Assembly: GCF_000830005.1 (NCBI RefSeq)
Contig: NZ_CP010407.1
Coordinates: forward strand, 744,001 to 808,000
Direction of reading: 5' to 3'
Length of the DNA stretch: 64,000 nt
Source: Streptomyces vietnamensis
GTDB taxonomy: Bacteria > Actinomycetota > Actinomycetes > Streptomycetales > Streptomycetaceae
Shown here: positions 15,199 through 56,213 of the stretch, piece by piece
Layout of the letters: each line of letters starts with the position of its first letter
How positions within the stretch are numbered: position 1 is the first letter of the stretch
Made by a program: the position numbers and the translations under genes
Notes under the pieces: generated by a model
The model's database searches: none
What the model saw: the letters and a program-made list of their open reading frames with translations, nothing else
What the model was told of the DNA's origin: nothing

Positions 15199-15447
15199 CT
15201 ACCGCGCGGCGGCCCAGGAACCCGGGGCTCGATAGGTGCGGTCGAAGCCCCAGGTGGGGGCCGGGATGACGGGATCACCCGGTGCGGCACGGCCGGCCGG
15301 TGTCCGCGCGCGGAGTACGGCGAGCACGGCCAGGGTGGCGGCGGCGATCTGCTCCTCGTCGGGGAGGCCGCGGACGAAGCGCAGGACGTGTGCCTGCTCC
15401 TGCGGGGTCATGGCCGTCGGGGGCGCGGCCGTCGTCACGGCCGTCAT
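15199..15447 (-). CDS. accE: Acyl-CoA carboxylase epsilon subunit
   Basis: A small non-catalytic subunit that stabilises or activates actinobacterial propionyl/acetyl-CoA carboxylase complexes. The 82 residues have the short family layout: [26 protein letters not shown], a Pro/Ala linker and a Trp-containing tail ([12 protein letters not shown]). Its ATG overlaps the stop of the truncated PKS gene (ATGA), which is an odd but deliberate-looking coupling. No alpha or beta carboxylase subunit is in the window, so it would work with subunits encoded elsewhere. The context suggests a role in raising methylmalonyl-CoA for the PKS. The family is weakly conserved, hence moderate confidence. Confidence 0.78.
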
Positions 15448-18350
15448 GCGGCCCAGGCCAGGGGGGCGGGCTCGGGGTGGTCGGCCGTGTCGTCGGTGGC
15501 CGTCCACAGTCGAGGTGCCTCGGGCAGGGCGTGGAGCACCCGGGCGAGCGCGAGGCCGGCGAGCGTGCCGCGCGGGACCATGAGGCCGTCGCCGCACGGG
15601 GAGCCGTCGACGTCGAGGAGGGAGAGCACCCCCGCGGGAGCCGCTTCCGTGATCGTCCCGGTGAGGATCCGGCCCAGTGCCTCGTCGTCCGCCGCGTCCG
15701 TCAGGTCCACGCTCCGGACGGTGACCCGTGCTCCCTGGGCGGCCAGTTCCTCCACGGCCCGCGTCACGAAGGGCTCGTCGGTGAAACCGGCGGGCACCAG
15801 GGCGAGCCAGGTGTCGGCGGCCGCACCGGTCGGGGTGTCCGCCGGCCGCCAGTGCAGCAGGGTGCGTGCGGTGACGGTGCGCTCCGGGGCGCCGAGCCAG
15901 TAGTGGTGGCGCTGGAAGGCGTACGTGGGCAGGTCGACGGGGGCCGCGTCGGCGGGGGACAGCAGGCCGGACCAGTCGACGGGAGAGCCGTTGACGTACG
16001 CCCGGGCGAGTCCGGTGAGCAGGGACGCCCCGCCCGCCAGGTCCACGAGGACGGCGTAGTCTTCCCCGCCGCCGCCCGCGGCGGCCTGCTCCGTGGGGCG
16101 GAACCAGAGCCAGGACGGCTGGTCGGCGGTGTGCTTCTCGCCCAGTGCGGCGCAGCGCGCGGCGCCGTCGAGGGTGAGGGCCCCCGCGAGGTGGACGGCG
16201 GTGGCCTCGTGCACCGGGTGTCCGACGAAGGCGTCCATCCGGGTGCCGAGGGCCCGGCAGGTGCGGACCAGGGCCACGGTGACGGCGAAGAGCGCGCAGC
16301 GCAGGGTCTGTTCGTCGGCCGGCCGGTCCGGTCCCGCCGGGTCGAGGACCGCGTCGCGTACGGGTGCGGTGGTGTACGGGGTCAGGGCGCGGGCGCAGAC
16401 GTCCAGGTGCTCCCGGAAGACCGGCGAGGTGTCGGCGAGCTCGCGGGCCATGGCGCGCCACGGGCCGTCCGGGTCGGGCAGGACGTATCCGACGCGCTCG
16501 TCGGTGTGGACGCCGACGGTCACGTGCGGGGACTCCTCGCCGGCGGCGAGGGCGCGCAGTCCCCGCTCCAGCTCGTCCCGGTCCTCGCCGACGACCACGG
16601 CGCGGTGGGTCAGGGTCGCGCGGGTGGTCGCCAGGGCGTGGGCGACGGCGGTGTCGGGGGCCTCCGGGTGGGCGGTGCTGAATTCGAGGAGTCGCGCGGC
16701 CTGGTCGCGCAGGGCCGCCTCGCCGCGGGCGGACACCGGCCAGACGAGGAACGGGGAGGCGAGCACGGGGGTCGGTGCGGGCGCCGGATCGACGGACCCG
16801 GGAACCCGCTCGGCAGACCCGGGAACCCGCTTGACGGACCCTGGAGCCCGCTCGACGCCCTCGGAAGCCGGAGCGGCGGCCTCGGGAGCCGGCCCGGGGT
16901 TCTCGGGCGTCCGCTCGGTCCGTGGGGCCTGTTCGAGGATGACGTGGGCGTTGGTGCCGCTGATGCCGAAGGACGAGACCGCGGCGCGGCGCGGGCGTCC
17001 GGTCTCGGGCCAGTCCACGGCCTCGGTCACCAGCTCCACCGCGCCGGCCGACCAGTCCACGTGCGGGGACGGCTCGTCCACGTGCAGCGTCTTCGGCACG
17101 ACGCCCTCGCGCAGCGCCATCACCATCTTGATGACCCCGCCGACGCCGGCCGCCGCCTGGGTGTGTCCGATGTTCGACTTCAGCGAGCCGAGCAGCAGCG
17201 GCCGGTCGGCCGGCCGGTTCTTCCCGTACGTCGCGAGGAGTGCCTGCGCCTCGATCGGGTCGCCGAGGCGGGTGCCCGTGCCGTGGGCCTCGACGACGTC
17301 CACGTCCGCCGGGCGCAGTCCCGCCCGGTCCAGGGCCTGGCGGACGACCTTCTGCTGGGACAGGCCGTTGGGCGCGGTCAGGCCGTTGCTGGCCCCGTCC
17401 TGGTTGACGGCGGTCCCGCGGACGAGGCCGAGCACGCGGCGCCCGTTGCGTACCGCGTCGGACAGGCGCTCCAGGACCAGCAGTCCCGCGCCTTCGCCCC
17501 AGCCGGTGCCGTCGGCGGCGGCCGCGAAGGCCTTGCAGCGGCCGTCGGGGGCCATGCCCCGCTGGCGGGAGAACTCGACGAAGACGCCGGGGGTGGCCAG
17601 GACGGTGACGCCGCCGGCGAGCGCCAGGTCGGTCTCGCCGGACCGCAGGGACTGGACGGCCATGTGCAGGCCGACCAGGGAGGAGGAGCAGGCGGTGTCC
17701 AGGGTGACCGCAGGACCTTCGAGGCCGAGGACGTAGGAGATGCGGCCGGAGACGACGCTGGAGGTGGTGCCGGTGAGCAGGTGGCCGTCGGCGCCCTCCC
17801 ACGGGCGGTGCAGGGGCGGCCCGTACTCCTGGGCGATGGCGCCGACGTAGACGCCGGTGTCGCTGCCGCGCAGGGAGAGCGGGTCGATGCCGGCGCGCTC
17901 CAGGGCCTCCCAGGAGGTCTCCAGGAGCAGCCGCTGCTGCGGGTCCATCGCGACGGCCTCGCGCGGCGAGATCCCGAAGAACTCGGCGTCGAACTCGCCC
18001 GCGTCGTGCAGGAACCCGCCTTCGTACGCGTACGAGGTGCCGTGCCGGTCCGGGTCGGGGTCGTACAGCTCCTCCGTGTCCCAGCCGCGGTCGTCGGGGA
18101 GTTCGGTCAGCACGTCGCGGCCTTCGGCGACGAGCCGCCAGAGGGCTTCGGGCGAGGTCGCTCCGCCCGGGTAGCGGCAGGCCATGCCGACGACGGCGAC
18201 GGGCTCGTCGCGGCGCTCCTCCTCTTCCTTGAGACGGCGCTTGACCTCGCGGAGTTCGGTCGTCGCCCTGCGCAGGTAGTCGCGCAGCTTGTCCTCGGTG
18301 CCGGCGTTGCCGGTGCCGTTCGTGTCGCCGGTGTCGTTCTGGTGCCCCAT
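15444..18350 (-). CDS. Truncated type I PKS: docking-KS-dead AT-partial KR, no ACP
   Basis: A 968-residue modular PKS protein. Residues 1-50 form a coiled-coil docking helix ([19 protein letters not shown]). The KS (about 52-475) is intact, with Cys221 in DTACSSS, HGTGT and GHTQAA. The AT region (about 570-790) is shortened and dead: the nucleophile motif GHSxG reads GHPVH (Pro712), the GQGxQ motif is lost and the YASH/HAFH region is missing. A KR structural half starts near 800 and breaks off at LWTATDD, ending PLAWAA. There is no catalytic KR, ACP or TE, and the stop overlaps the next gene, so this is not a simple sequencing frameshift. The docking helix suits the C-terminus of the preceding PKS. 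It may act as a KS-only partner for an AT-ACP protein. Confidence 0.9.
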
Positions 18351-18367: not shown

Positions 18368-21300
18368 TCAGTCGCGGAAAAGATCGAGTTCGTCTTCGAG
18401 GGCCGCGAAGAGCTCCTCGTCCGTCGCCGTGCTCAGGTCGCCGCCCCCCGTGTCGGCGCTCGCCTCGGGCTCCCAGCGCTGCAGCAGGGAGCGCAGGCGG
18501 GTGCCGATGCCCTGGCGGGTCGTGGCGTCGGGCGCGGCGGCGAGCAGCGCCTCGAACCCGGCCTCCAGGCGGTCGAGTTCGGCCGTGTCGGGACCGCCGT
18601 CGTCGGCGCCGGCGGCGCCCGGAGCGCCGTCGGTGACGAGTTCGCCGTACAGGTAGTCGGCGATGGCGGCCGGTGTCGGGTGGTCGAAGACGAGCGTCGC
18701 GGGCAGGCGCAGTCCGGTGGCCGTCTTGAGGCGGTTGCGCAGTTCCACCGAGGTGAGCGAGTCCGAGCCGAGCTCCTTGAAGGCGCGGTTCGGGCCGATC
18801 GCGGCCGGTGAGGACTCGCCGAGCACCACGGCGGCGTGTTCGCGGACGAGGTCCAGGAGGACCCTGCGGCGCTCGGCCTCGGGCAGGGGGCCGAGCCGGT
18901 CGGCGAGCGAGGCCGCGCCGGCGGCGGTGCCGGCCCGGGCGCGGCGGCGTGCCGGCTTGCGGACCAGGGAGCGCAGGAGGGCGGGGACTTCGGCGCCGGA
19001 GGTGGTGAGTCCGGCGAGGTCGAGCCGGACGGGTACGAGGGCGGGCCGGGTCGCGGTCAGGGCCTCGTCGAGGAGGGTGAGCGCCTCGGCGGTGGGCATC
19101 GCGGCCACGCCGGTGCGGGCGAGCCTGCGCAGGTCCTTGTCGTCGAGGGTGCCGGTGAGGGCGCTGGTCTCCTCCCACAGGCCCCAGGCGAGGGACACCG
19201 CGGGCAGGCCCTCGGCCCTGCGCCGGTGTGCGAGGGCGTCCAGGAAGGCGTTGGCGGCCGCGTAGTTGGCCTGGCCCGCCGTGCCGAGGGTGCCGGCGGC
19301 GGAGGAGAACAGGACGAACGCGGCGAGGTCCAGGTCGCGGGTGAGCTCGTGGAGGTGCCAGGCGGCGTCCGCCTTCGGCCGCAGGACCCGGTCCACCTGC
19401 TCCGGGGTGAGCTGGTCGACGGCGGTGTCGTCGAGGGTGCCCGCGGCGTGGACGACGGCGGTCAGCGGGTGGGCGGGGTCGATGCCGTCGAGCGTGGCCC
19501 GGAGGGCGGTGCGGTCGGCGGCGTCGCAGGCCACGACGGTGGCGCGGGCTCCCGCCTCGGCCAGGGCGGCCACCAGTTCGTCGGCCCCGGCGGCGGCCGG
19601 GCCCTGACGGCTGGTCAGGACGAGGTTCCGTATGCCGTGCGCGGTGGCCAGGTGGCGGGCGACCAGGCCGCCGAGGGTGCCGGTGCCGCCGGTGACGAGC
19701 ACCGTGCCGTCCGGGTCGAGCGGGCGGGGCACGTCCAGGACCAGCTTGCCGGTGTGGCGGGCCTGGGACATGTGGCGGAAGACGGCGGGGGCGTGGCGCA
19801 GGTCCCAGGTCATGGCGGGCAGCGGGGTGAGCGTTCCGTCCGCGAAGCGGGCGAGGACCTCGGCGAGCATGTCCCGGACCCGTTCGGGGGCGACGAGGTT
19901 CAGGTCGTACGCGTGGTAGGCGGTGCCGGGGTACGCGGCGGCGACGCGGTGGGGCTCGCGGATGTCCGTCTTGCCCATCTCGATGAGCCGTCCGCCGGGT
20001 GCGAGCAGGCGCAGCGAGGCGTCGACGAAGTCGCCGGCGAGGGAGCCGAGGACGACGTCCACGCCGCGGCCCCCGGTGGCCTCCCGGATCCGCTGCTCGA
20101 AGCCGAGGGTGCGGGAGTCGTAGATGTGGGCGTCGTCGAGGCCGGCGGCGCGCAGGGTGTCCCACTTGCCGTGGCTCGCCGTGGCGTAGACCTCGGCGCC
20201 GAGGTGGCGGGCCAGTTGGACGGCCGCCATGCCGACGCCGCCGGCGGCCGCGTGGATCAGGACGGTGTCGCCGGGGCGGACCCCGGCGAGGTCGACGAGG
20301 CCGTAGTACGCGGTGAGGAAGGCGACCGGGACGGAGGCGGCCCGGGCGAAGGTCCAGCCCCCGGGGACGGGGGCGATCAGCCGGCTGTCGGCGACGGCCA
20401 GCGGGCCGAAGCCGTCACGGACCAGTCCCATGACGCGGTCGCCGGGCTTCAGTCCGGTGACGCCGGGGCCGGTCTCGGCGATCACGCCCGCCGCCTCGTA
20501 GCCGAACTGGTCGCGGTCCTCCTCGATCATGCCGAGGGCGAGGACGACGTCGTGGAAGTTCAGTCCCGCGGCCCGGACGGAGATCCGTACCTGGCCGGGG
20601 GCGAGTGCCGCGGCGGCCTCCGGTGCCGGGGCGAGGGAGAGGTTCTCCAGGCTGCCCTTGCCCTCGCTCACGAGGCGCCAGGCGTCGCCGCCGGCGGGCA
20701 CGGGGAGGGCCGGGTCGTCGGCGGCGCGGGCCAGCCGCGGGATGAGGAACCGGCCTGCGCGGACGGCGAGTTCGGGTTCCGTGCGCAGCAGCTCGGGGAG
20801 GGCGTCCGGGAGCGGCGTCCGGCTCTCCTCCGTACCGTCGAGGTCGAGCAGGGCGAAGCGGCCGGGGTGCTCGCGCAGGGCGGAGCGGACCAGGCCCCAG
20901 ACGGCCGCGCCGGTGAGCGAGGCGGGGCGCTCGTGCGGTCCGGTGGCGACGGCTCCGGTGGTGGTGAACACGAGCGGGACGTCGGCGAGCCGGTCCTCGG
21001 CGAGCCAGCCGCGGATCAGGGCGAGGACGGTGTCGGTCGCGGCGCGTACGGCGTCGGCCGGGGTGGTGTCGGGCGACGCGGGCGTGTCGGCGGCGACGGG
21101 GGCGAGTACGGCGGCCGGCGGCCGGGTCCCGGAGGCGAGGGCCGCCAGGAGGGCCGGGAGGTCGGCGTGGTGGGTGGCGTGGGGGTGGTCCTGGAGGCCG
21201 TGGCCGGTTCCGAGGACGGCGACCGGCTGCGGGGAGCCGTTCGTCTCCGGCCGGTCGACCGGTGTCCAGTCGACGAGGTAGAGGGAGCGCCGGTTCCGGC

Positions 21301-24300
21301 CGTCGGCGGCGGTGAGGGCGCCGGGTGCCAGGGCGCGGACGGTGAGCGCGTCGGCCGAGAGGACGGCGGCCCCGGTGGGGTCCCAGGCGGTCAGGGCCAC
21401 GGTGTCGGCCGCGGAGCGGGTCAGCCGGACGCGCAGGGTGGTGGCGGCCTCGGCGTGGACCCGGACGCCCGCCCAGCCGAAGGGCAGGACGACCTCGCGG
21501 GGGCTCTCGTCGTCGGGGCCGGGGACGATCAGCGGGTGCAGGGCGGCGTCGAGCAGCGCGGGGTGTACGGCGAACGCGGCGGCGTCCTTGTGGTGGTCGT
21601 CGCCGAGCGCGACCTCCCCGTAGAGGTCGTCGCCCAGTCGCCAGGCTGCGGTCAGGCCCTGGAAGGCGGGGCCGTACGCGTAGCCGGAGGCGGCGAGGCG
21701 GTCGTAGGCGCCCTCGGTGTCGATGCGTTCGGCGCCGTGCGGGGGCCACACGGCCGGGGCCGGCTCCGTGGGCCCGCCGCCGGCGGCCAGCTGTCCGCCG
21801 GCGTGGTAGGTCCAGCCGGCGTCGGGGGCGTCCTCGCGCAGGGCGTGGAGGCCGACGGTGCGGCGGCCTTCGGCGTCGGGGGCGGCGACGGTCACCTGGA
21901 TGCGGACGCCGTCGTGCGGGGGCACCACGAGGGGGACGGCGAGGTCGAGTTCCTCGACGAGGTCGCAGCCGACCCGGTCGCCGGCCTGGACGAGGAGTTC
22001 GAGCAGGGCCGTTCCGGGGAGCAGCACCGTGCCGGACACGGCGTGGTCCGCGAGCCAGGGGTGGCTGTGCAGGGACAGCCTGCCGGTGAGCAGGGTGGTG
22101 CCGTCCTCGGCGGACTCGACGGCGGCGCCGAGCAGCGGGTGGTCCAGCGGTTCGAGGCCGAGACCGGCGGCGTCCGCGGCCTGCTCCGGGGCGTCGAGCC
22201 AGTACGGGCTGTGCTGGAAGGCGTACGTGGGGAGGTCGGCCGGCGGCAGGCCGGAGGTGCCGAGGACCGCCTGCCAGTCGACGGGCAGGCCGTGGGCGTG
22301 GGCTCGGGCCAGGGAGGTGGCGAGCCGGACGGGCCCGCCGTCGTCGCGGCGGAGGGTCTCCAGGACGACGGCGGTGCGCTCGGCGGCCTCGGCCAGCTCC
22401 TGCACGGCGGAGGTCAGCAGGGGGTGGGCGGTCGGTTCGACGAAGACGCGGTGGCCGTCGTCGAGCAGGGCCCGGACGGTGTCGGTGAAGCGGACGGTCC
22501 GGCGCAGGTTGCGGTACCAGTAGGCGGCGTCGAGTCCCGTGGTGTCGTACGGGCGGCCGGTGACGGTGGAGTAGAAGGGGACGCGGGACGGGCGCGGGGT
22601 CACCGGGGCGAGGGCGGTGAGCAGTTCCCGCTCGATCGTCTCGACGTGCGCGGTGTGCGAGGCGTAGTCGACGGCGACGCGGCGGGACTTGACGCCGCCC
22701 GCCTCCCAGGCGGTGAGCAGGGCGTCGAGCGCCTCGGGCGAGCCGCCCACGACGGTGGCGGTGGGGCTGCTGACGGAGGCGATCGAGACGTCTCCGGCCT
22801 CCTCGGTCTCCGCGAGGAGCCGCTCGACGGTGTCGGCGGGCAGCATCACGGAGGCCATGGCGCCGGTGCCGGCCAGCCGGTCGCGGGTGATGAGGCTGCG
22901 CAGGGCCACGACGCGGGCCGCGTCGTCGAGGGTGAGCGCGCCGCAGACGTACGCGGCGGCGATCTCGCCCTGGGACTGGCCGACGACGGCGGCGGGGCGG
23001 ATGCCGGCGGCCTGCCAGACGTCGGCGAGGGCGGCCATCACGGCGAACAGGGCGGGCTGGACGACGTCCACGCGCTCCAGCGGCGGGGCGCCGTCGGCGC
23101 CGCGCAGCACGTCGGTGAGGGACCAGTCGACGTACGGGGCGAAGGCCGCTTCGCACGCCTCGATGGTGGTGCGGAAGACCGGGGAGGCGTCGAGGAGTTC
23201 GCGGGCCATGCCCTCCCACTGGGCGCCCTGGCCGGGGAAGACGAACACGGCCCGGCCTCCGGACGCCACCGCGCGCACCAGGTGCGGGGCCTCCTCGCCC
23301 GCGGCGAGGGCGCGCAGCGACTCGTCCAGGCCCGCGCGGTCGGCGCCGATGGCGACGCCCCGGTGGGAGAGGGCGGCCCGGGTGGTGACCAGGGCCCGGG
23401 TGACGGCGGCGGGGTCCGCGTCGGGGTGGCCGGTGCCGTAGTCGAGGAGGCGGCCGGCCTGGGCGCGCAGGGCCTCGTCGCCGCGTGCGGACACGGGCCA
23501 GACGAGGGGCGCGGAGGTGAGGACCGGGGTGGGGAGGTCCTGTTCCTGCTGCTCCTGCTGCTCCTGCTGGGGTGCCTGTTCGAGGATGACGTGGGCGTTG
23601 GTGCCGCTGATGCCGAAGGAGGAGACCGCGGCGCGGCGGGGGCGTCCGGTCTCGGGCCAGTCCACGGACTCGGTCACCAGCTCCACCGCGCCGGCCGACC
23701 AGTCCACGTGCGGAGTCGGCTCGTCCACGTGCAGCGTCTTGGGGACCAGGCCCTCGCGCAGCGCCATCACCATCTTGATGACCCCGCCGACCCCGGCGGC
23801 CGCCTGGGTGTGTCCGATGTTGGACTTCAGCGAGCCGAGCAGCAGCGGCCGGTCGGCCGGGCGGTCCTGCCCGTACGTCTCGATCAGGGCGGTCGCCTCG
23901 ATCGGGTCGCCGAGCGTGGTGCCGGTGCCGTGCGCCTCGACCGCGTCGACCTCGTGCGGCGCGAGGCCCGCGTCGGACAGGGCCTGGCGGATGACGCGTT
24001 CCTGGGAGGGGCCGTTGGGGGCGGTGAGGCCGTTGCTGGCGCCGTCCTGGTTGACGGCGGAGCCGCGGACGACCGCGAGGACCCGGTGTCCGTGGCGTAC
24101 GGCGTCGGAGAGGCGTTCCAGGACGAGCATGCCGACGCCCTCGCCCCAGCTGGTGCCGTCGGCGGAGGCTGCGAAGGCCTTGCTGCGGCCGTCGGGGGCC
24201 AGGCCCCGCTGGCGCGAGAACTCCAGGAAGATCGTCGGGGTGGGCATGATCGCCGCGCCGCCGACCAGCGCGAGCCCGCACTCGCCGCGGCGCAGCGACT

Positions 24301-24958
24301 GGACCGCCATGTGCAGGGTGACCAGGGAGGAGGAGCAGGCGGTGTCGACGGTGACCGCGGGACCTTCGAGGCCGAGGGTGTACGCGATGCGGCCGGAGGC
24401 CACGCTGGACGAGCCGCCGGTGATCGCGTAGCCCTCGTACTCCTCGGGCACCTGGCCGAGCCGGGCCGTGTAGTCGTGGTACATGAGCCCGACGAAGACG
24501 CCGGCGTCGGTGCCGCGCAGTCCGGTCGGGTCGATGCCGGCGCGCTCCAGGGCCTCCCAGGAGGTCTCCAGGAGCAGCCGCTGCTGCGGGTCCATCGCGA
24601 CCGCCTCGCGCGGCGAGATCCCGAAGAACCCGGCGTCGAACCCGGCGGCGCCGTGCAGGAAGCCGCCCTCGCGGACGTACGACTTGCCGGACTTCCCGGG
24701 CTCGGGGTCGTACAGGTTCTCCACGTCCCAGCCGCGGTCGACGGGGAATCCGCCCATCGCGTCGGTGCCGGTGGCGACCAGCCGCCACAGGTCCTCCGGC
24801 GACTCCACGCCGCCGGGGAACCGGCATCCCATGCCGACGACGGCGATCGGCTCGCTGCTGCGCTCGTCGATCTCCCGCAGGCGCTGCCGGGTGGTGTGGA
24901 GGTCGGTCGTGACCTTCTTCAGATAGTCGCGGAGCTTGTCCTCGTTGGACATGGACAT
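18368..24958 (-). CDS. Type I PKS module: KS-AT-DH-ER-KR-ACP
   Basis: A 2196-residue fully reducing elongation module. Order: N-terminal docking helix (1-38), KS (about 40-460, Cys208), AT (about 560-860, Ser662 in GQSQGE, YASH at 765-768, the methylmalonyl signature), DH (about 930-1200, His972 in HxxxGxxxxP, DAALH later), ER (about 1440-1740, [15 protein letters not shown] loop), KR (about 1745-1925, [11 protein letters not shown] motif of B type, Tyr1899), ACP (Ser2067 in LGSDSL) and a C-terminal class-1 docking segment ([15 protein letters not shown]). ATG 24958 lies 14 bases after the preceding PKS stop. All catalytic residues look intact, so it should add a methylmalonyl unit and reduce it to a methylene. 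The next gene starts 17 bases on. Confidence 0.94.
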
Positions 24959-24972: not shown

Positions 24973-33552
<8,580 letters not shown>

Positions 33553-37482: not shown

Positions 37483-37498
37483 CCCCTATCGGCCCCTA
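37483..37498 (-). promoter_or_regulatory. Paired TAGGGG direct repeat, copy 1 (candidate SARP box)
   Basis: On the minus strand two TAGGGG hexamers occur 10 bases apart, the second as ATAGGGGTGC. The first overlaps the TAG stop of the thioesterase gene. The pair lies about 90 bases upstream of the oxygenase gene at 36549-37391. An almost identical element is found before the SnoaL-like gene and a variant before the DHA2 exporter. Confidence 0.5.
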
Positions 37499-38302
37499 AG
37501 CCTTCAGGGGGTCGATGTGTGCCGTGAGGGTGGCGATGACCTCGCGCTGCCGCTCGGCGAGGTAGAAGTGCCCGCCGGAGAAGACCCGCAGGGCGAAGTC
37601 GGCCGTGGTGTGGTCCCGCCAGGCGGCGGCCTGCTCGGCCGTGACCCGGGGGTCGACGTCGCCGATGAGGGCGACCACGGGGCAGTTCACGCGGGCGCCG
37701 GCCTCGGGCCGGTAGGTCTCCACGGCGGCGAAGTCGGCCCGGATCGTGGGCACGACGAGCTGGAACAGCTCGGGGTCGTCCAGCATGCGCACGTCGGTGC
37801 CGCCGAGCTTCTGCAGTTCGGCGAGGAGGGCCCGGTCGGGGAGGCGGTGGATGCCGTCGTCCCGGCTCAGCGCGGGGGCGCGCCGGCCGGAGGCGAGGAA
37901 CAGGTCCGGTGCCCGGCCCGTGCCGAGGCGTTCCAGGGCGCGGGCGGTCTCGAAGCCGACGACGGCGCCCATGCTGTGTCCGAAGAAGGCCAGGGGCCGG
38001 TCCGCGGGGACGCGGGCGGCCAGTTCCGCCGCGATGGTCCGGGAGAGTTCGCCGACGCTCTCCATACAGGGTTCGCGGTGGCGGTCCTGGCGGCCCGGGT
38101 ACTGGACGGCGATGACGTCGTACCGGGCCGACAGCGCTTCGGAGTACGGGTAGTAGAAGCTGGCGGACCCGCCCGCGTGCGGGAAGCACACGAGCGTGGC
38201 GCCGGCCCGGGCCGGGGTGCCGTGGTAGCGGCGCAGCCACGGCCCGGGGTGGTCGAGCGGGAGGGTGCGCCCGCCGGTGGCGGACGGGCTCGTCGCGGTC
38301 AC
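37496..38302 (-). CDS. Type II thioesterase
   Basis: An editing alpha/beta hydrolase that clears stalled or misprimed acyl groups from PKS/NRPS carrier proteins. The 268 residues include [15 protein letters not shown] at the N-terminus, the nucleophile motif GHSMGA, the Asp region IGDVDPRVT and the C-terminal catalytic GGHFYL. GTG 38302 overlaps the panD stop (GTGA), tying it to the building-block genes. No assembly-line thioesterase domain is found in the window, so besides editing this enzyme could take part in chain release. The reductase at the end of the last NRPS is the more obvious exit. Confidence 0.93.
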
Positions 38303-38715
38303 GAGGCCACGAGGTCGCCGCGGAACAGCCCGGAGCCCTCGGGGGTCTCCGCCGGGTCGGAGCCCAGGTGCCGGACGGTGTTGTGCTCGTCGACGAAGAC
38401 GACCCGCGGTTCCAGCTCGCGTGCCTGGGCGTCGGTGACGGTGGCGTACGCGATGATGATCACGAGGTCGCCGGGGCTGATGAGGCGGGCGGCGGCGCCG
38501 TTGATGCCGATGACGCCCGAGTCGCGCGGGCCCTCGATGACGTACGTGGACAGCCGGTTGCCGTTGTCGATGTCGACGATGTCGACCTTCTCGCCGGGCA
38601 GCAGGTCGGCGGCCTCCATGAGTTCGGCGCTGATGGTCACCGAGCCGACGTAGTGGAGGTCGGCCTGGGTCACCTTGGCGCGGTGGATCTTGGACTTGAA
38701 CATGGTTCGGTACAC
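38299..38715 (-). CDS. panD: Pyruvoyl-dependent aspartate 1-decarboxylase
   Basis: Converts L-aspartate to beta-alanine. The proenzyme cleaves itself between Gly24 and Ser25 (YVGSVTIS here) to form the pyruvoyl group. The 138 residues keep the typical [17 protein letters not shown] start, the Tyr/Arg pocket and [23 protein letters not shown] 38715 is taken with AGGAG upstream. ATG 38703 would also preserve the cleavage site. It sits between mbtH and the type II thioesterase, overlapping the latter, and no panB or panC is nearby. It is therefore probably a dedicated source of beta-alanine for an adenylation domain rather than part of pantothenate synthesis. Confidence 0.95.
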
Positions 38716-38764: not shown

Positions 38765-38971
38765 TCAGCGCTCGCCCATGCGGCGGCGCAGGCCGAGCGG
38801 GCGCAGGTCGGTCCAGTCGGCGGCGATGTGGTCCAGGCAGTCCTCGCGGGTGCCGGTGAACCCGACGGTGTGCCAGCCGGCCGGCGGCTCCTGGTCGGAG
38901 GGCCAGACGGAGCGCTGCTCCTCGTCGTTGACGACGACGGACCAGGTGGGGGCGGTGGTCGCGGCGGTCAT
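38765..38971 (-). CDS. MbtH-like NRPS activator
   Basis: A small chaperone that binds adenylation domains and improves their folding and activity. The 68 residues carry the family signature [19 protein letters not shown], and the C-terminal [14 protein letters not shown]. The start overlaps the methyltransferase stop (ATGA). With three A domains in the cluster, at least one probably depends on it. Confidence 0.95.
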
Positions 38972-39867
38972 CGGGCGTCACCGGCCGGCTTGGTGCCGGA
39001 GAACATGAAGAACACCAGCATCATCGAGGCGTCCGGGCGGGCCAGGAACTCGTCCATGGCGTCGGCGGTGACCTCGCAGGGCCGCTGGGCGGCCGGGTTG
39101 ACGGCGACCATGGCGGCGGTGCGGGAGCGGACGTTCAGCTGCGGGGCGAGGACGTCGAGGCCGACCTCCTCGCTGGAGATGGCGATCGCCTCGACCTTGA
39201 TGTCGGTGAAGCCCGCGGCCTTCATCAGCTGCCCGAGCTCGCGGCCGATGAGACGGTTGCCGCCCCGGCTCGCCTGGAGCTGGATGCGCAGCTTGACGAC
39301 CTCGTCGAACTCGGGCAGGTCGGGCTGCGGGTGCAGCAGGCCCCACAGGGCGTCGTCGACGTCGGTGACGACGAGCTTGCCGCCGGGGCGCAGGGTGCGG
39401 TGGATCTCGGCGAGCGCGTCGGGGGTGTGCGGGACGTGCTGGAGGACCAGGCGGGCCAGGGCGAGGTCGTAGCTCTCGTCGGGCAGGCCGCTCTCCAGGA
39501 CGGAGCCCTGGACGAGGGTGAGCTGCTCGGGGCGGGCCGGGGTGAGGTGGCCGCGGGCGTGCTCGATCAGGTCCTCGTTCAGCTCCAGGGCGGTGAGGGT
39601 GCCGTCCGGGATCTCCTCCAGGAGGCGCTCGGTGATGTAGCCGGGGCCGGGGCCGATCTCCAGGACGTCGGCGTCGGTGGTGAGGCCGAACTCGCGCAGG
39701 GTGCGGACCTCCTTCTGCCAGGAGGCGGCGACCTGCTGGCGCAGGCGGTGGATCTCGTTCTCCGGCGCGTGGTGCTCGCCGGGCTTGTAGTACGAGGAGG
39801 GGCGGGACAGGTCGGCGCCCGGGACCTCGGAGGCGTCGGTCTGCGGGGTCTGGGTCACGGTGGTCAT
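38968..39867 (-). CDS. SAM-dependent class I methyltransferase
   Basis: A 299-residue Rossmann-fold methyltransferase with motif I VLEIGPGPGYIT, the acidic motif II residue in LTALELNEDL, motif post-I LARLVLQHVPH and the RPGGKLVVTD strand. It is the only clear methyltransferase in the window and the likely consumer of SAM from the embedded SAM cycle. ATG 39867 follows the NRPS gene by 51 bases, with GGAG 12 bases upstream. Whether it acts on N, O or C, and on a free building block or the finished product, cannot be told. Unlike integrated NRPS methyltransferase domains it is a separate protein. Confidence 0.9.
   Translation of the reverse strand: MTTVTQTPQTDASEVPGADLSRPSSYYKPGEHHAPENEIHRLRQQVAASWQKEVRTLREFGLTTDADVLEIGPGPGYITERLLEEIPDGTLTALELNEDLIEHARGHLTPARPEQLTLVQGSVLESGLPDESYDLALARLVLQHVPHTPDALAEIHRTLRPGGKLVVTDVDDALWGLLHPQPDLPEFDEVVKLRIQLQASRGGNRLIGRELGQLMKAAGFTDIKVEAIAISSEEVGLDVLAPQLNVRSRTAAMVAVNPAAQRPCEVTADAMDEFLARPDASMMLVFFMFSGTKPAGDAR

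Positions 39868-44339: not shown

Positions 44340-44343
<4 letters not shown>
39919..44343 (-). CDS. NRPS module C-A-PCP with terminal thioester reductase
   Basis: The last module of the peptide line, 1474 residues. The condensation domain (about 8-440) has HHMVCDGW. The adenylation domain (about 460-960) has YTSGSTGTPKG, YAFDVSVVE and MYGITET. The carrier protein has Ser1039 in LGGYSLL. The reductase (about 1095-1474) has NAD(P) motif GATGFLG and catalytic YTQSK, so the peptide should be released as an aldehyde or alcohol. Read by eye against GrsA, the A-domain pocket begins D-V-V-N-I-F-M. One residue seems missing after YGITET, so I make no substrate call. GTG 44343 overlaps the preceding PKS stop. 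Confidence 0.94.
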
Positions 44344-47385
<3,042 letters not shown>

Positions 47386-47393
<8 letters not shown>

Positions 47394-50300
47394 CCCCCTG
47401 TCCCCTTCTCATCCGGCGCCGCCGGTCGGCGGCCCGTCTGGCGCGCTGGGCCGCTTCGTCGCGTACGGCCTGGTCGTTCGTGTGTGCCGCGGTCCCGCCC
47501 GCTTCGGCCCCGCCTCCGGCGAGGCGGTCCAGATGACGGGCCAGGGCGGCGACGGTCGGGTGCCGGAGCAGGTCGACCACCGGTACGTCGAGGGAGAACT
47601 CCTCCCTCAGGCGGGTCTGCAGCGGCACCAGCTGGAGCGAGTGGCCGCCGCGGCCGAAGAAGGTGTCGTCCCGTCCGATGTCCTCGACGTCCAGGAGTTC
47701 CCGCCACAGGCCGCGGACGCGTTCCTCGGTGCGGGTGACCGGGGTGCGGGTCGTGCCGGCCCGCTCGGCGGCGCGCCGCCGGGCCCGCAGCCGGGCCACG
47801 TCGACCTTGCCGTTGGCGGTCAGCGGGAAGGCGTCGACCACGTCGAGGACGCCCGGCACCATCGCGGCGGGCAGCCGCGTGAGCAGGTGCGTCCGCAGCG
47901 CGTCGGCGTCCGCCGGTGTGGCCGCGGCGGTCTGCACGGTGACCCAGGCCGCGAGCGACAGCTCTCCGGTGGTGTCGGACACCGGTGCCACCACGGCCGC
48001 GGTGACCGCGGGGTGGCCGCGCAGGCAGTGCTCCACGCCGGCGAGGTCGACGCGGTGGCCGCGTACCTTCACCTGGCGGTCGGCGCGGCCCGCGAAGACG
48101 ACGGTGCCGTCCTCCCGGTGGCGGCCGAGGTCACCGGTGAAGTAGAGGCGTTCGCCGTGGCCGCCCGCCGGGTCGGCGGTGAACCGGGCCGACGCGTCGC
48201 CGCCGAGGTAGCCCTCGGCGAGGTACGGGGTGCGGACGACGATCTCGCCCAGCTCGCCGACCGCCGCGGGGAACCGGCCGCGCATCACCAGGAGCTGGGC
48301 CCCGTCGATGCCCGTTCCCAGCGGCACGGCCTCGTCGGGGGCGGTCTCGCCCACCGGGTGCCAGGCCGGGGCCTGCGGCGTCTCGGTGGCGCCGTAGAAG
48401 TTGACCAGCCGGACGCCCGGCGCCAGGCGGCGCAGGGTGGCGGCCTCCCGGCCGGTGAGCACGTCGCCGCCGAAGAAGGCCAGCCGCAGCGACGGCAGGG
48501 AGCCGTCGGGAAGGCCGGCGAGGAAGCGCGCCATCGGCGGGGTGAGGTGCAGGACGGTGATCTCCTCGGCGGCCAGCCAGGCGGCGAAGGCCTCCGGGGT
48601 CGCCCGGTCCTCCTCGTCCGGTACGTGCAGCCGGGCGCCGATCGACAGCGGGACGAACAGGTCGCGCAGCAGCGGGTCGTGGCCGAGGCCCGAGGTGAGC
48701 GCGAACCGGTCGGCAGCGCTCACGTCGAAGGTGCGGGTGTACCAGTCGACGAAGTGGGCGAGCGGGGCGTGGCTCGCCACGACTCCCTTGGGGGCGCCGG
48801 TGGTTCCCGAGGTGAAGGCGATGTACGCGGTGTCGGCCGGGAGCGCGGGCACGCGTGCCGGCGCCGGGTGCGGCGTCCCGGTGGCGGTGGTGGTGGCCGT
48901 GGTGACGAGGACGGGCGGCGGGCCGAGGACCTCGGGCTCTCCCGCCCGCGTCTCCAGCCAGGCCTTCGCGCGGATGAGCCGTGCGCACTGCTCCCGCCGC
49001 TCCGCGGGGTGGGTGCGGTCGAGGACGGAGAAGGCGGCTCCGGAGCGGAGCGCGGCCAGGACGGCGACCACCAGGGCGGGGCTCCGCTCGGCGTGCACGG
49101 CCACGACGTCGCCCCGGCCGGTCCCCGCGGCGTGCAGTTCGGCGGCGAGGGAGTCGACGGCGCCGGCGAGTTCGCCGTACGTCAGCTCCGTGCCCCGGTG
49201 CCGGAGGGCGACGGTGCCGGGCCGTGCGGCGGCCGTGGCGGCGAACCGCTCGTGGACCGCGGCCGTCCACGGCTCCGGCGGCAGCGGCCGGCCGGGGTCG
49301 GGCAGCGTGGCCGGCCGGGGCGGGACCAGTTCGTCCAGGGGGCGTTCGGGCTCGGCCACGACGGCGGCGAGCAGCGCCTCGAACTGGTCGAGGAAGGCCG
49401 TGACGGTCCGGGCCTCGAAGAGCGAGGCGTCGTGGACCAGGTCGAGGCCGAGCGAGCCGTCGGCCGCGGGCCGGACGTACAGTGTCAGGTCGAAGCGGGC
49501 GCTGAGGTCCTCGGTGCCGACGAGCCGGGTGCGTACGCCGGGGATCGGCGGGTGGGAGTCGTCCAGGTTGAGCATGTTGAACAGCACCTGGAAGACGGGG
49601 GTGCGGGTGAGGTCCCGGTCCGGGGCGAGCCGGTCGACGATCCGCTCGAAGGGCACTCCCTGGTGGGCGTCGGCGTCCAGGGCCTTGGTCCTGACCCGGC
49701 GCAGCAGCTCGCGGAAGGCGGGGGCGCCGGAGGTGTCGGTGCGGACGGCGACGGTGTTCACGTACAGGCCGACGCTGTGCTCCAGGTCCTTGCGGGCCCG
49801 GCCGGCGACGGGCATGCCGACGACGACGTCGTCCTGGCCCGACCACCGCGACAGGAGGGCGTTGTACGCGGTGAGCAGCGCCATGGAGAGCGAGGCGTTC
49901 TCCTCGCCGGCGAGGCTCCGCAGCCGCTCGGCCAGGCCGGCGGCGACCGTGCGCCGCTCCCGGGCCGCGGGCCGGTCCTGCCGGTCCCGGCGCGGGCGGT
50001 CGGTGGGCAGGTCGAGGGCGGCGGGGGCGCCGGCCAGCACCTCGGTCCAGTGCGCGAGTTCGGCCTCCCCGTCGGCGCCGTTCTGGTGCCGCGTCTGCAT
50101 CCCGGCGAAGTCCGCGTACTGCACGACCGTGTCGGGGAGCACGGCGGATGCGTCCCGCTCGCCCTGCGCGAAGGCCGCGTAGAGGGCGGACAGTTCGCGG
50201 ACGACGAGGCGCATCGACCAGCCGTCGGCGGCGATGTGGTGCACGGACAGCTGCACCACGTACCGGTCCTCGGCCAGCTTGATCAGCTGGGTGTGGAGTG

Positions 50301-53300
50301 GGGAGCGGGTGAGGTCGAAGGGCCGCCGGTTGAAGGAGGCGGTGTGCTCCTTCCGCGCGGCCTCCCGGGCGTCGGCGGCGAGCCCGGAGAGGTCGGTCTC
50401 GGGCAGGATCCCGTCGGGCAGGCCCTCGGTGACGACCTGGCGCGGCTCGCCCGACACGGCGACGTACACGGTCCGCAGCGCCTCGTGGCGGGCGACGACC
50501 TCGGTCAGCGCCGCGCGCAGGGCCTCGGGGTCCACGGGTCCTTCGAGGTGGAGCTCGCCGGCGATGCGGTACGCGAGGCCGCCCGGTGCGAGCTGCTCGA
50601 CGAACCACATCCGCTGCTGGGCGGAGGAGAGGGGCAGTCCCTCCGGTCCGCGCTCGAGGCGCGGGATCGGTTCGGTCCTGGCCGCCGGGTCGGTCGCGGC
50701 CCGGCCGGCGTCGGCGAGCGCGTCGATGCGTGCGGCGACGTCCCGCAGGACGGGGGCGTCGAAGAGCTCGCGCAGCGGGAGTTCGACGCCGGTGGCCTCG
50801 TGGAGGCGGGAGGCGGCCTGGATGGCGAGGAGGGAGTGGCCGCCCAGTTCGAAGAAGTTGGCGTCGGCGGCGATCCGCTCGGCGCCGAGGAGCTCGCTCC
50901 ACACCTCCGCGACGGTCTTCTCGCTGGGTGTGGTGGGCGGCAGTGCTTCCGGGGTGCCGTCGTCCGGCAGGTCCTCCGGGGCGGGGAGCAGGGCCCGGTC
51001 CACCTTGCCGTTGGGGTTCAGCGGGAAGGCGTCCATGACGAACAGGTGGGAGGGGATCATCGCGGAGGTGAGGCGCTCGGCCAGGTGGGAGCGGAGCGCG
51101 CCGACCGTGGGGGGCTCCTGCGCGGTCGCCTCCTTCAGCACGTATCCGGCGAGGATCAGCCGGCCGTCGCGGCCGGGCCGGGCCATGACGACCGCCTCCC
51201 GGACGCCGGGGTGCGCTTCGAGGGCGTCCTGCACCTCGGCCGGTTCGATGCGTACGCCGCGGATCTTGACCTGGTGGTCGGCCCGGCCCAGGTAGTGCAG
51301 GGTGCCGTGGCGGTCGAAGCGGACGCGGTCGCCGGTGCGGTAGACGCGGGCCCCGGGGACGTCCGAGAAGGGGTGCGGGACGTAGCGGTCGGCGGTCAGG
51401 TCGGGCCGGTTCTGGTAGCCGCGGGTGACGCCGGTGCCGCCGAGGTACAGCTCGCCGACGACGCCGGGCGGTACGGGGCGCAGGTCCGCGTCGAGGACGT
51501 ACAGCTCGGTGCCGGGCAGGGCGCGGCCGATCGGCGGGAGGGTGCCGTCGGGGACGCAGACCTCGGTGGTGCAGAAGACCGTGATCTCGGTCGGGCCGTA
51601 GGCGTTGACGATGCGCCGCCCCGGTGACCAGGTCCGGACGAGTTCGGCCGAGACGGCCTCGCCGACCGAGGTGAGTTCGGTGACGGTCGGCAGGTCGGCC
51701 GGGTCCATCGTGGCGAGGACGGACGGGGTGGCGCTGAGGGTGGTGACGCGTTCGCGCCGGATGGTGTCGACGAGCGGCGGGCCCGGGCGGAGCTCCTCGC
51801 GCGGGGCGACCACCAGGGTGCCTCCGGTGGTGAGCGCCATCATCCATTCCCAGGTGCTGACGTCGAAGCTGATGGAGGCGTTCTGCAGGACGCGCCGGCC
51901 GGGCCGCGGCGGCATCGACTCGCGGTGCGCCAGGTCGAAGTCGACGAGGCCCGCGTGCTCGACCATCACGCCCTTGGGGCGGCCGGTCGACCCGGAGGTG
52001 TAGATGACGTACGCGAGGCGGCCGCCGTCGGGCTCGGGGAGCGCGGGGGCGGGCACGGGCGGCTCGTGCTCGTCGTCGAGGCAGAGGACCGGCACGTCCA
52101 CCGCCGGCAGCCTGCCGAGCACCGCGCGCTGGGCGAGGAGCAGGGCCACCGAGGAGTCCTCGATCATGTACTCCAGGCGCTTGACCGGGTACGTCGGGTC
52201 GAGGGGGATGTACGCGCCGCCCGCCATCAGGATGGCGAGGAGGCCGACGAAGAGCCGGGGGGTGCCGTCGCCGGTGAGGCCGACCTTGGTCTCCGGGCCG
52301 ACGCCGTGGGCGCGCAGGACGAGCGCCAGCGCCTCGGCCTGCTCCACCAGTTCGCGGTACGTGAGCCGCTCGTCGCCGCTCTCGACGGCGGGGGCGTCCG
52401 GGGTGCGGGCGGCCTGGGCGAGGACCAGCTCGTGGACGCCCCGGTGGGCCAGGGCGGCCGGGTCGCCGGGGCGGCTCCAGTCGGTGAGGACCTGCCGGCG
52501 GTCGTCGTCCGAGAGCATCGGCAGCAGGGCGTGGGGGCTGTCGGGGCGGGCGGCGCAGGCGGCGGCCAGGGCCTGGAAGTGGCGGCCGAGTCCCTGCGCG
52601 GTCTCGGGGTCGAACAGGTCGGTGGCGTAGCGCAGGGAGCAGCTGACCCGGCCGTCGACCTCTTCGGCGAAGACCGACAGGTCGTGCTCGCTGCCTTGGA
52701 CGGGCACCGGGTGGGGCTCCATGACGAGGTCGCCGACGGTGAGCCGGGCTCCGGCGGCGCCGGTGGCGAAGAGGGAGAGGCCCTGCTCGGACGCCGAGGA
52801 GGTGGACTCGTAGAAGAAGGCGACGTCGAACAGGCCGCCGCCCCGGCCGCTCTGGGCGGCCTGCTCGGCCACGAGCGGGTACGGGTAGTCCTGGTGCTCC
52901 ATGGCGTCGAGCGCGGTCTCGCGGACCTGCTCCAGGAGGGAGCGGAAGGTCTGCTCCCGCTCGATCCGGGTGCGCAGCACCATCAGGTTGGCGAAGTAGC
53001 CGACGACGTCCTCGAAGGCGGCCCTGCCGCGGCCGGTGGAGACCGAGCCGAGCCAGATGTCGTCCTGGCCGGTGTAGCGGTGCATCAGCAGGTTGAACAC
53101 CGACAGGACGGCCGTGTAGAGGGTGCCGCCCGTCTCGCGGGCGACGCGGCGGAGGCCCGCGGTGACGTCCGCGTCGAGGGTGAAGGCGTGCACGGCGGTG
53201 CGGTGGCCGGGGCGGGCGGGGCGGGGGCGGTCGGCGGGCAGTTCGAGGCGGGGGACCTCGCCGGCCAGGCGCTCCGCCCAGTAGGCGGCGCTCGCGGCGC

Positions 53301-53976
53301 CCCGGGCCCCGTCGACGAACTCGCGCTGCCGGTCGACGTACTCCCGGTAGTCGGCGGCCGGCCGCGCGAGGGCGACGGGGCGCCCGGCGCGTGCCGCCGG
53401 GTAGGCCTGCTGGAGGTCCCGGAGGATCAGCGAGAAGGCCCACAGGTCGGCCGCGATGTGGTGGGTGCCGAGGAGGAGCACGTGCCGGTCCTCGCCGAGC
53501 CGCAGCAGCCGGCAGCGCAGGAAGGAACCCTGGGCCAGGTCGTAGGGGCGCTCGACGAACGCGGTGACGGCGGCGTCGACCTCGGTGTCGTCGCGGCCGG
53601 TCAGGTCCTCCTCGGTGAAGTCGACCCGGGCGCCGGTGGTGACGCGCTGGACGAGTCGCTCCCCGTCCTGGAGGACGGCCGTGCGCAGCACGGGGTGGGT
53701 GTCGAGGACGGCCTGCAGCGCGGTGCGCAGGGCCGGCGCGTCCAGCGGTCCGCTGACGCGGGCCGCGAAGCAGAGGTGGTAGGCGGGGCTGCCGGGGTGC
53801 ATCTGCTCGAACAGCCACAGGGCGCGCTGGCCCTCGGACACCGGGTGGGTGGTGGGCGGGGCGGCGGCGGGCCGGGCGGCGGCCCGGCGCAGCAGCTCGG
53901 CGCGGAGAAGGGCGCGTCGCTCGTCCGGGGTGGCGGCGGCGGTGCCCGTCGCGGGCGGGGCCTGGTGTGTCGTCAT
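47386..53976 (-). CDS. Two-module NRPS: C-A-PCP-C-A-PCP
   Basis: A 2196-residue NRPS. Module 1: C (about 45-480, HHIAADLW), A (about 500-930, YTSGSTGRPKG, SFDVSTWEW, AYGPTE), PCP (Ser1048). Module 2: C (about 1070-1500, HHIAADGW), A (about 1520-2010), PCP (Ser2113). The second A domain is atypical: core A3 reads FTSGTTGAPKG, the A4 region GLGHDPLLRDLF replaces the usual FDxS, and A5 is FYGATETPQ. My by-eye pocket reading is D-V-W-S-T-V-A-V-F for A1 and D-P-L-H-A-F-F-Q-A for A2, neither of which I can assign. No epimerisation or methylation domains are present. ATG 53976 overlaps the AT-ACP stop, so the first C domain probably takes its acyl donor from that ACP. Confidence 0.94.
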
Positions 53977-56213
53977 ATCTCGCCCGCTGCGTCACCGGCC
54001 AGTCGGCCGAGCAGCGAGTCCACCTCCTCCGGGGAGAGCGCGTCGAGGTCGGCGAGGAGCCGCTCGATGTCCGCGGGGTCGTCGAGGTCGGGCAGTCCCG
54101 GGCCGTGGCCGGGTTCCCGCTGGTCGTGTGTCGTGCCGGGCGTCGGCTGCGGTGCGAGCCCGTCGGCGATGTCGGCGGCGAGGTCCGCGGCCGTGGCGCC
54201 GCGCAGGATGCGGACGAGTCCGATCTCGACGCCGAAGTCGGCTTCGAGGGTGCGTCGCAGCTCCAGGCCCATCACCGAGTCCATGCCGAGCTTGCTCAGG
54301 GGCCGCTGGGCCGGGATCCGGTCGACGGTGGTGCGCAGCGCGGCGGCGGCGACCCGGCGCACCCGCTCGGTGAGCAGGGCGACACGGGTGGCGGGGTCGG
54401 CGGCCGCGAGCGTGCTCGGGTCGACCTTCTCCTCCGTGTCCTGCCGCGCGGCGGAGGGTGCCTCTTCCGTCGGGCTGCCGCCGGGCGTCCGGTCGCGCCA
54501 GGCGGACCGCGCGATGCGCAGGAGGGGGCCGCCGTCCTCGGCCATGACCGTGGTCGTCGCGGTGCCGTCCCCGGTCCGGGCGATGTGCACCCAGCGGGGC
54601 CCGGCCTCGGTGTCGTACGGCTCGATGCCCCGGGCGGAGAGCGGCGCGTGGGCACCGAGTACGGCGGCGGTGATCCGGAAGGCCACGTCGAGCGCGGAGC
54701 GCCGCCCGGGGGCGATGCCCCGGCGCAGCCGTACGAGGACCTCGTCCCCGGCGTGCCAGGCGGTGTCGGCGGCGGTGTCGGCCACGGTGCGCGGGGTGGT
54801 GCAGCGTCCGGTCAGCTCGGCGAGGTCCGGCGGTCCTGCGTCCGCCGGGGCGGGCGCCTCGTGCCGTGCGGTGAGCAGCCGGGTCCAGCCGGATCCGGTG
54901 GTGCGGCCGTACGCGGCGACGGTGGCGGCGCCCGGGGCGACGGGCCCTGCGACGACGGACGCCTCCGCGGGCGCCAGGTCCTCGGTCGTGTCCCAGTCGA
55001 CCGAGACGCTCCGCCGCTCCGGGTCCGCCGGTGCCGTCGCCCCGCCCGCCGTTTCGAGGGCGGTCATGGCGGTGGCCGTGACGCCGGCGGCGAACTGGGC
55101 GGCCCGTCCGCGCAGGGCGATACGGGGGGCCTCGGTGCCGGCCGCCGCGAGGAACCGGACCTTGCCCGCGCCGTGCGTCCGGGCCGCGCCGGTCCGGCGC
55201 AGTTCCCACACGGTCCGCAGGACGTTCTCCTGTTCGCCCTCGCCGCGCCGCAGCGTGGGCAGGACGAGGGGGTCGACGCCCCGTGCCGTGCAGCACTCGG
55301 TGAGCGAGGGTGACAGGGTCGGGTGCGCGCCGACCTCGACGAAGGTGCGGCAGCCGAGGTCGACGAGGGTGTCGACGGCCTGGACGAAGCGGACGGGGCG
55401 GCGCAGGTTGTCGGCCCAGTAGGCGTGGTCGAGGGCCGGGCCCTCGACGACCTCGCCGGTCACCGTGGAGACGAGGGTGGCGGTGGTGGCGCGCGGCCGG
55501 ATGCCCGGCGCCGCCGCGGCGAACTCCTCGCGCAGGGGCTCGAGGAAGCGGCTGTGGAAGGCGATGTCGCCCGGCAGCAGCCGGCCGAACACCTCCTGCG
55601 CGGCCAGCTCGTCGACCATGGCCCGCACGGTCGCGGCCTCTCCCGCGACGAGGGTGGAGCCGGGCGCGTTCCAGGCGGCGATGTCCGCTCCGCCGCCGTG
55701 GCGGGCGATGAGCGCCGCGGCCGTCTCGGCGTCGACGCCGAGGAGCGCGGTGCGTCCGGTGCCCACGGCCCGGCGCATGAGTTCGCCGCGGAGCCTGGCC
55801 AGGCGCAGCGCGTCGGCCAGGTCCAGGGCTCCGGCGGCGGCAGCGGCGGCGATCTCGCCGAGGCTGTGGCCGACGAAGACGTCGGCGACGACGCCCCGTT
55901 CGGCCAGCAGCCGCGCGAGGGCGATCTGCAGCGCGACCAGCGTGGGCTGGAGGACCGCCGGGTCCTCAAGCCGTGACTCCTCCTGGGATGCGGCCAGTTC
56001 GCCGAGGAGCGACCATCCGGTGGCGGGGCGCAGGACGGCGTCCGCCTCCTCGAGCACGGCCCGTGCGGACGGCTCGTGGGCGATGAGGCCCTGCCCCATG
56101 CCCGGCCACTGGTTGCCCTGTCCGGAGAAGACGAGGGCGGTGCGGCCCGTGCCGTGGGCGCGCGCTGCGTCGGCCGCCACCGTCGCGTGGCCGGCCCGAG
56201 TCGATGTCGTCAC
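53973..56213 (-). CDS. PKS protein AT-(DH remnant)-ACP lacking a KS
   Basis: A 746-residue protein. The AT (about 28-330) has Ser117 in GHSLGE and FHS (about 218-220) in the specificity region, neither the clear YASH nor the clear HAFH type. About residues 470-570 resemble the back half of a hot-dog dehydratase without the HxxxGxxxxP half. The ACP has Ser646 in LGMDSV. It ends in a helix DALSPEEVDSLLGRL, typical of C-terminal docking segments. There is no KS. GTG 56213 has CCGGAG upstream, and its stop overlaps the NRPS start (ATGA). It could load a starter for the NRPS, or supply the AT and ACP missing from the truncated PKS at 15444-18350. Confidence 0.9.
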   Translation of the reverse strand: MTTSTRAGHATVAADAARAHGTGRTALVFSGQGNQWPGMGQGLIAHEPSARAVLEEADAVLRPATGWSLLGELAASQEESRLEDPAVLQPTLVALQIALARLLAERGVVADVFVGHSLGEIAAAAAAGALDLADALRLARLRGELMRRAVGTGRTALLGVDAETAAALIARHGGGADIAAWNAPGSTLVAGEAATVRAMVDELAAQEVFGRLLPGDIAFHSRFLEPLREEFAAAAPGIRPRATTATLVSTVTGEVVEGPALDHAYWADNLRRPVRFVQAVDTLVDLGCRTFVEVGAHPTLSPSLTECCTARGVDPLVLPTLRRGEGEQENVLRTVWELRRTGAARTHGAGKVRFLAAAGTEAPRIALRGRAAQFAAGVTATAMTALETAGGATAPADPERRSVSVDWDTTEDLAPAEASVVAGPVAPGAATVAAYGRTTGSGWTRLLTARHEAPAPADAGPPDLAELTGRCTTPRTVADTAADTAWHAGDEVLVRLRRGIAPGRRSALDVAFRITAAVLGAHAPLSARGIEPYDTEAGPRWVHIARTGDGTATTTVMAEDGGPLLRIARSAWRDRTPGGSPTEEAPSAARQDTEEKVDPSTLAAADPATRVALLTERVRRVAAAALRTTVDRIPAQRPLSKLGMDSVMGLELRRTLEADFGVEIGLVRILRGATAADLAADIADGLAPQPTPGTTHDQREPGHGPGLPDLDDPADIERLLADLDALSPEEVDSLLGRLAGDAAGEI

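Follow-up and report, generated by a model that had tools for sequence, protein, structure and literature searches.

A PKS module probably split in trans between an orphan KS and a distant AT-ACP protein would link a KSQ-led PKS to an NRPS in Streptomyces vietnamensis

Split modules in described assembly lines

PKS modules divided between two proteins are already known, and the likely precedent for the form considered here is found in mycobactin assembly, in which MbtC is the KS, whereas entries named MbtD have AT, KR and ACP but lack a KS (Pfam column). The sources, as far as their accessible text goes, name an 'MbtC-MbtD polyketide synthase system' (PMC9505556) and assign the malonyl addition in mycobactin to MbtC and MbtD (PMC8150894). 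Split cis-AT modules of the form KS-AT // MT-ACP are described for barbamide, jamaicamide and lyngbyapeptin, and the ACP half of the lyngbyapeptin module delivers to an NRPS (PMC10127204, in the part available). Split modules are common in trans-AT systems, and cis-AT junctions lie mostly between modules, according to the accessible part of PMC9113145. A preliminary description of the locus studied here had held that known systems supply only the AT in trans; this was too narrow, given the published split cis-AT modules and MbtC-MbtD.

The locus lies in a stretch of 64,000 nucleotides of the S. vietnamensis genome, which we analysed as a whole and call the window. It resembles MbtC/MbtD in that one PKS step would be shared by two proteins. 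Unlike MbtC/MbtD, the KS-bearing protein retains the remnant of a dead AT as well as a docking helix that faces an upstream modular PKS, its AT-ACP partner is devoid of a KR, and 36 kb lie between the two genes; the AT-ACP protein reaches 201.7 bits against the MbtD model NF037940, far under the cut-off of 1150. With barbamide, jamaicamide and lyngbyapeptin it would have in common a natural split module with a cis AT, but those systems keep the AT with the KS and are divided between AT and MT-ACP, whereas the division here separates KS from AT. The macrolactin KS/KR junction, a trans-AT case, is similar in that a KS ends one protein and the rest of the module stands on another (PMC9113145, accessible part). 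However, trans-AT split modules have free-standing ATs and known docking pairs, while in this locus AT and acceptor ACP form one protein, so that the free-standing AT of a trans-AT system is not what is found. Nor could we recognise a docking pair between the C-terminus of the KS-bearing protein and the N-terminus of the AT-ACP protein, residues 1-20 of which are modelled with a pLDDT of about 30. What appears new from the domain content is thus a KS and an AT-ACP on separate proteins, which would connect a PKS led by a KSQ with an NRPS line; the relatives of this line have a cis KS.

Two incomplete proteins at opposite ends of one cluster

The orphan KS protein (15444..18350, minus strand; 968 aa) consists of a class-1-type docking helix (PF08990, residues 18-44), a KS (Pfam, residues 49-424), a degenerate AT, a post-AT linker and, beyond this linker, a tail of about 140 aa. 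The alignment shows a complete KS triad, Cys221, His356 and His396. The AT is only a fragment, positions 11-115 of the 319 of the PF00698 profile being matched, with Pro712 at the position of the catalytic Ser and Gly737, placed by eye, at that of the Arg of extender ATs. Its decay goes beyond a point mutation, as two thirds of the AT profile, including the region of the expected catalytic His, are unmatched. Pfam detected no ACP (PF00550) in this protein. The docking helix and intact KS (Cys221) of the preliminary description, together with its dead AT (Pro712) and missing ACP, are all borne out by these observations. Possibly the tail represents the structural half of a KR; it gave one weak alignment with PKS2 (E 0.09) and none with the corresponding part of PKS1. 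The AF2 model of the protein has a mean pLDDT of 41 and supports no claim on its fold. A frameshift, or a KR/ACP missed at the 3' end of the gene, was considered and rejected, as the three frames below 15444, inspected by eye, show no remainder of a module; the next gene downstream encodes a SAM synthetase.

The AT-ACP protein (53973..56213, minus strand; 746 aa) has an AT (residues 28-343), a middle region (about 369-573), an ACP (616-680) and acidic C-terminal helices, and Pfam found no KS in it. Ser117, His220 and Arg142 of the AT and Ser646 of the ACP are in place, in agreement with the intact AT and ACP and the missing KS described earlier, and a 4-base overlap of the gene's end with the start of the NRPS gene (53973-53976) confirms that the one leads straight into the other. 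The middle region is predicted to form helices and strands in the structure model and has no Pfam match in the window protein, and the structure comparison of the protein covered mostly residues 1-372. That this region is a decayed DH is only a guess, prompted by a weak, below-cut-off PS-DH match in the relative P0017. The acidic C-terminus is predicted to form helices at residues 713-724 and 728-745, the N-terminal segment of the NRPS is basic (by eye), and look-alikes of both termini are seen by eye in both fused relatives described below. Their charge and position fit a contact between carrier and C domain.

A gene call by a simple codon score yields one minus-strand run from 58402 down to 6294, with the AT-ACP gene at the upstream end and the orphan KS gene at the downstream end of the assembly-line genes. 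The co-directional arrangement over 36 kb of the preliminary description is thereby retained, and the strand, minus for both genes, is now established. In order of transcription, and all on the minus strand, an MFS exporter gene is followed by those for a SnoaL-like protein (56231..56659; the same upstream neighbour of the AT-ACP gene is found in strain A1136 and in Streptomyces caatingaensis), the AT-ACP protein, a C-A-T-C-A-T NRPS (47386..53976), which is the presumed acceptor from the AT-ACP protein, a complete KS-AT-ACP module (44340..47393), a C-A-T NRPS with a terminal thioester-reductase-type domain (PF07993; 39919..44343), a methyltransferase (38968..39867), an MbtH-like protein (38765..38971), a PanD-like aspartate decarboxylase (38299..38703), a possible source of beta-alanine, and a thioesterase (37496..38302), type II by its position. 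Then come a tailoring block (33804..37391) of a WelO5/2OG-like oxygenase, an SDR, a PhyH-type dioxygenase and a Zn alcohol dehydrogenase; PKS1 (24973..33552), with a KSQ-AT-ACP loading module (active-site Gln, by eye) and a KS-AT-DH-KR-ACP module; PKS2 (18368..24958), with a fully reducing module, docking-KS-AT-DH-ER-KR-ACP, and an acidic C-terminal tail (by eye), the presumed donor to the orphan KS; and the orphan KS protein itself. It is followed by a SAM recycling set (7180-15143, minus strand) of SAM synthetase, PfkB kinase, methionine synthase, MTHFR and SAH hydrolase, and by a piece resembling methylmalonyl-CoA mutase; in A1136, too, the PfkB kinase and SAM synthetase genes adjoin the orphan KS gene.

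Several further genes deserve mention. The WelO5/2OG-like protein (36549-37391, minus strand), near the PhyH-type protein, is a distant match (28.3 bits against the Pfam cut-off of 27) and could be a hydroxylase or a halogenase. An AfsA-type (A-factor biosynthesis) protein is encoded near the cluster at 61260-62270 on the plus strand, a possible butyrolactone signal gene. About 16 kb past the right end of the window (L053:15753-18848) we noticed by eye a KS-AT-ACP PKS gene with a KAS III-like gene alongside, which apparently belongs to a different cluster. As to the product, our literature searches on this cluster type and on S. caatingaensis revealed no paper on such a cluster among those that they listed.

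The domains of the cluster balance in a simple way. There are five KSs and five PKS ACPs, three of each in PKS1 and PKS2 taken together and one of each in the KS-AT-ACP protein, and the only unpaired ones are those of the orphan KS protein and of the AT-ACP protein. In A1136, likewise, the former has no ACP of its own and the latter no KS.

Relatives, conservation and origin of the orphan KS

Two peptide patterns, scanned against species genomes, turned up four loci with an AT-ACP relative, in S. murinus, A1136, S. caatingaensis and Paenibacillus profundus; for the comparison of relatives, 22 proteins of the window served as tblastn queries. The corresponding protein is a single ACP-KS-AT-ACP in S. 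caatingaensis (L011:8144-12457) and in P. profundus (L012:8183-11551), and in Kitasatospora fiedleri (P0025) KS, AT and ACP also stand on one protein, with an ACP-like stretch at its start (by eye). S. caatingaensis keeps the NRPS half in order: SnoaL-like protein (37%), fused PKS (54% over the AT), NRPS (55%), KS-AT-ACP (61%), C-A-T-reductase (59%), methyltransferase (49%), MbtH (62%) and thioesterase (41%), the exporter match (56%) lying apart on the opposite strand. In the 58 kb examined there, tblastn gave no match for the ADH, PhyH, SDR, 2OG, PanD and SAM genes, and the PKS1, PKS2 and orphan KS queries matched its two PKS proteins, and these in their KS-AT parts alone. The 21.5 kb of P. 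profundus show window matches solely in the fused PKS, the NRPS (34% identity) and the KS-AT-ACP protein (43%).

These two clusters thus share with the window the AT-ACP half, the NRPS and the KS-AT-ACP protein, but differ in how the line begins. An AMP ligase gene is located directly upstream in P. profundus and within the cluster in S. caatingaensis (36% to the P. profundus ligase), and both have a starter ACP and a KS in cis; starts of the iturin type parallel this initiation by AMP ligase and ACP-KS-AT-ACP. The window contains no AMP ligase, the ligase query matching only NRPS A domains; in place of the ligase and the cis ACP-KS it has the KSQ-led PKS that ends in the orphan KS.

Neither incomplete form is a chance product, since the orphan KS protein aligns with nine database entries and the AT-ACP protein with 15. 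Among the former, the KS Cys and His356 are kept in all nine rows that cover them (P0129 is partial) and His396 in 10 out of 10, whereas the AT Ser is replaced in every one of the ten (Pro in nine, Thr in one) and the position of the extender-AT Arg, placed by eye, is Gly in nine and Asp in one. The truncated form is common to these ten rows (the window's and the nine others), all of which stop at one W-containing motif. In the AT-ACP alignment (window plus 15), the Ser, His and Arg of the AT and the Ser of the ACP are kept in 16/16.

For a single pair, the window and A1136, the Nei-Gojobori method gave a dN/dS of about 0.17 for the KS of the orphan KS protein (dN 0.089/dS 0.52), 0.64 for its KS-AT linker, 0.47 for the dead AT (0.293/0.62), 0.76 for the loosely constrained post-AT stretch (0.38/0.50) and 0.35 for the tail (0.317/0.90). 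The KS is thus firmly kept and the remainder of the protein is held more loosely. In the same comparison the ACP (dN 0.241/dS 0.42) and the middle region (0.418/0.64) of the AT-ACP protein are both loosely constrained.

Both genes are present in all five strains that could be checked for both, the window's own included; among them are S. vietnamensis, A1136, S. murinus NRRL B-2286 and NPDC006326. S. vietnamensis and NPDC006326 count because each appears among the database entries for either protein, in the case of NPDC006326 on contigs of equal length. This count leaves out the AT-ACP entries for NPDC049602, NPDC051452, NPDC091259, NPDC048111, NPDC001717 and P0010 and the KS entries P0123, P0124, P0127, P0129 and P0130. 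In S. murinus NRRL B-2286 the orphan KS gene is cut by the contig end and is 100% identical over residues 1-505 of P0128. In A1136, tblastn covered 19 of the 22 queried genes over >90% of their length, in the same order and with the AT-ACP and orphan KS genes on one contig; a piece of the methionine synthase gene lies at the contig end, and SAH hydrolase and MTHFR gave no match in this strain, whose contig ends before them. A search of 392 Streptomyces genomes with the AT-ACP protein minus its AT, and with the C-terminal part of the orphan KS protein, gave strong matches in the same two only, namely the window's own genome and another, which agrees with A1136 in contig number and coordinates and is very probably that strain, so that the five strains very probably include this second genome. 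The AT-ACP search also returned 30 weak matches (E 9e-15 or weaker), restricted to the ACP part. Two more draws, of 121 and 340 Streptomyces genomes, turned up these two positives again and so add nothing to the evidence.

Related clusters with one gene and without the other, which the preliminary description had itself set against its reading, are absent among the five strains, but AT-ACP relatives with no KS do exist in other genera (P0013, P0016, P0018 and P0020), and these keep a leftover KS-AT linker. A search for plasmid-borne AT-ACP relatives matched 249 records, in none of which a single place covered 80% of the query.

Where does the orphan KS come from? In a KS tree of 23 rows, which took in no trans-AT KS, it groups with modular type I KSs of the PKS1/PKS2 type and not with the ACP-KS found in the relatives. 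A fully supported branch separates the 13 rows of this group from the rest, the order among them being unsupported; P0130 does not join the other orphan KS rows with support. Six outside entries were tried for the tree, of which five yielded a KS (P0177 one of only 303 residues) and P0203 none. This grouping points to a KS from the PKS side rather than to the relocated cis KS of the relatives, as would be expected of a replacement.

A probable junction between two assembly lines

We consider it probable that the orphan KS carries out the condensation that brings the PKS chain onto the AT-ACP protein and so joins the PKS and the NRPS into one line. The fused relatives, the absence of the ligase, the domain balance, the conservation, the selection on the KS, the co-occurrence and the position of the orphan KS in the tree all argue for this reading. 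The proposal of a single split module joining the two systems, made in the preliminary description, thereby gains support from the fused relatives, the co-occurrence in five of five strains and the balance of one KS against one AT-ACP. Judged from the domains, the ACP of PKS2 would hand its chain to the orphan KS through docking helices, and the AT of the AT-ACP protein, with its intact Ser, His and Arg, would load a malonyl-type unit on its own ACP. The orphan KS would condense the chain with that unit, leaving a beta-ketoacyl chain on this ACP. The first C domain of the NRPS would accept the chain from there, perhaps by contact between the acidic and basic helices. The line would then proceed through the NRPS, the KS-AT-ACP protein and the C-A-T-reductase to a reductive release.

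The most serious alternative, though an unlikely one, is that the AT-ACP protein is a mere loading didomain that primes the NRPS, and that the orphan KS either is a relic or serves, with PKS1 and PKS2, a line with its own product. AT-ACP loading modules are known, 36 kb separate the two genes, which stand at the two extremes of the assembly-line genes, other genera have AT-ACP relatives without a KS, and the orphan KS protein has a dead AT and no ACP, all of which would suit such a division. However, the Arg of extender ATs, which binds the malonyl carboxylate and is lost in AT-ACP loading didomains for monocarboxylic starters, is kept (Arg142) in all 16 AT-ACP rows; a malonyl-ACP requires a KS for elongation, and the homologues have one in cis before the same NRPS. 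Moreover, a relic would hardly be expected to keep its triad, a KS under purifying selection and a conserved truncated form.

The orphan KS might also pass its chain to another acceptor, be it a free-standing ACP elsewhere in the genome, a different PKS ACP or, with no elongation, an NRPS carrier. The genome does hold other KS genes, and the KS-AT-ACP gene beyond the window has been mentioned, but all other PKS ACPs of the cluster have their own KS. Non-elongating KS domains typically do not have both His residues, whereas these are present here, and we regard a different acceptor as quite improbable. Still less credible is the view that the orphan KS gene has become a pseudogene, or that a frameshift has left it as the front part of a complete module. 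The degenerate AT and the missing ACP could be read in this way, but the SAM synthetase gene that comes next, the three frames with no module remainder (by eye), the one end point shared by ten rows and a dN/dS below 1 in all five parts measured speak strongly against it.

How could a module split in trans have arisen at this place? The ancestral line would have started from a carboxylic acid, probably a fatty acid, by way of an AMP ligase, ACP, KS, AT and ACP. It would then have lost the ligase and the ACP-KS, which a KSQ-led PKS whose last module had decayed to its KS would have replaced, the order of these events being conjectural. We suggest tentatively, and with slightly more doubt than confidence, that two unrelated lines were joined by this swap of the KS and that the dead AT and the conserved tail persist as a docking surface for the AT-ACP protein.

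If the split-module reading is true, this locus would provide a natural example of a KS-to-AT-ACP junction by which a modular cis-AT PKS is connected with an NRPS line, and relatives still have the fused form. The two forms would make a comparison pair for how assembly lines get re-primed, and the junction a template for joining PKS and NRPS without gene fusion. Clusters of this type would then have to be understood as a single line making a single product, rather than as a truncated PKS beside a separate NRPS.
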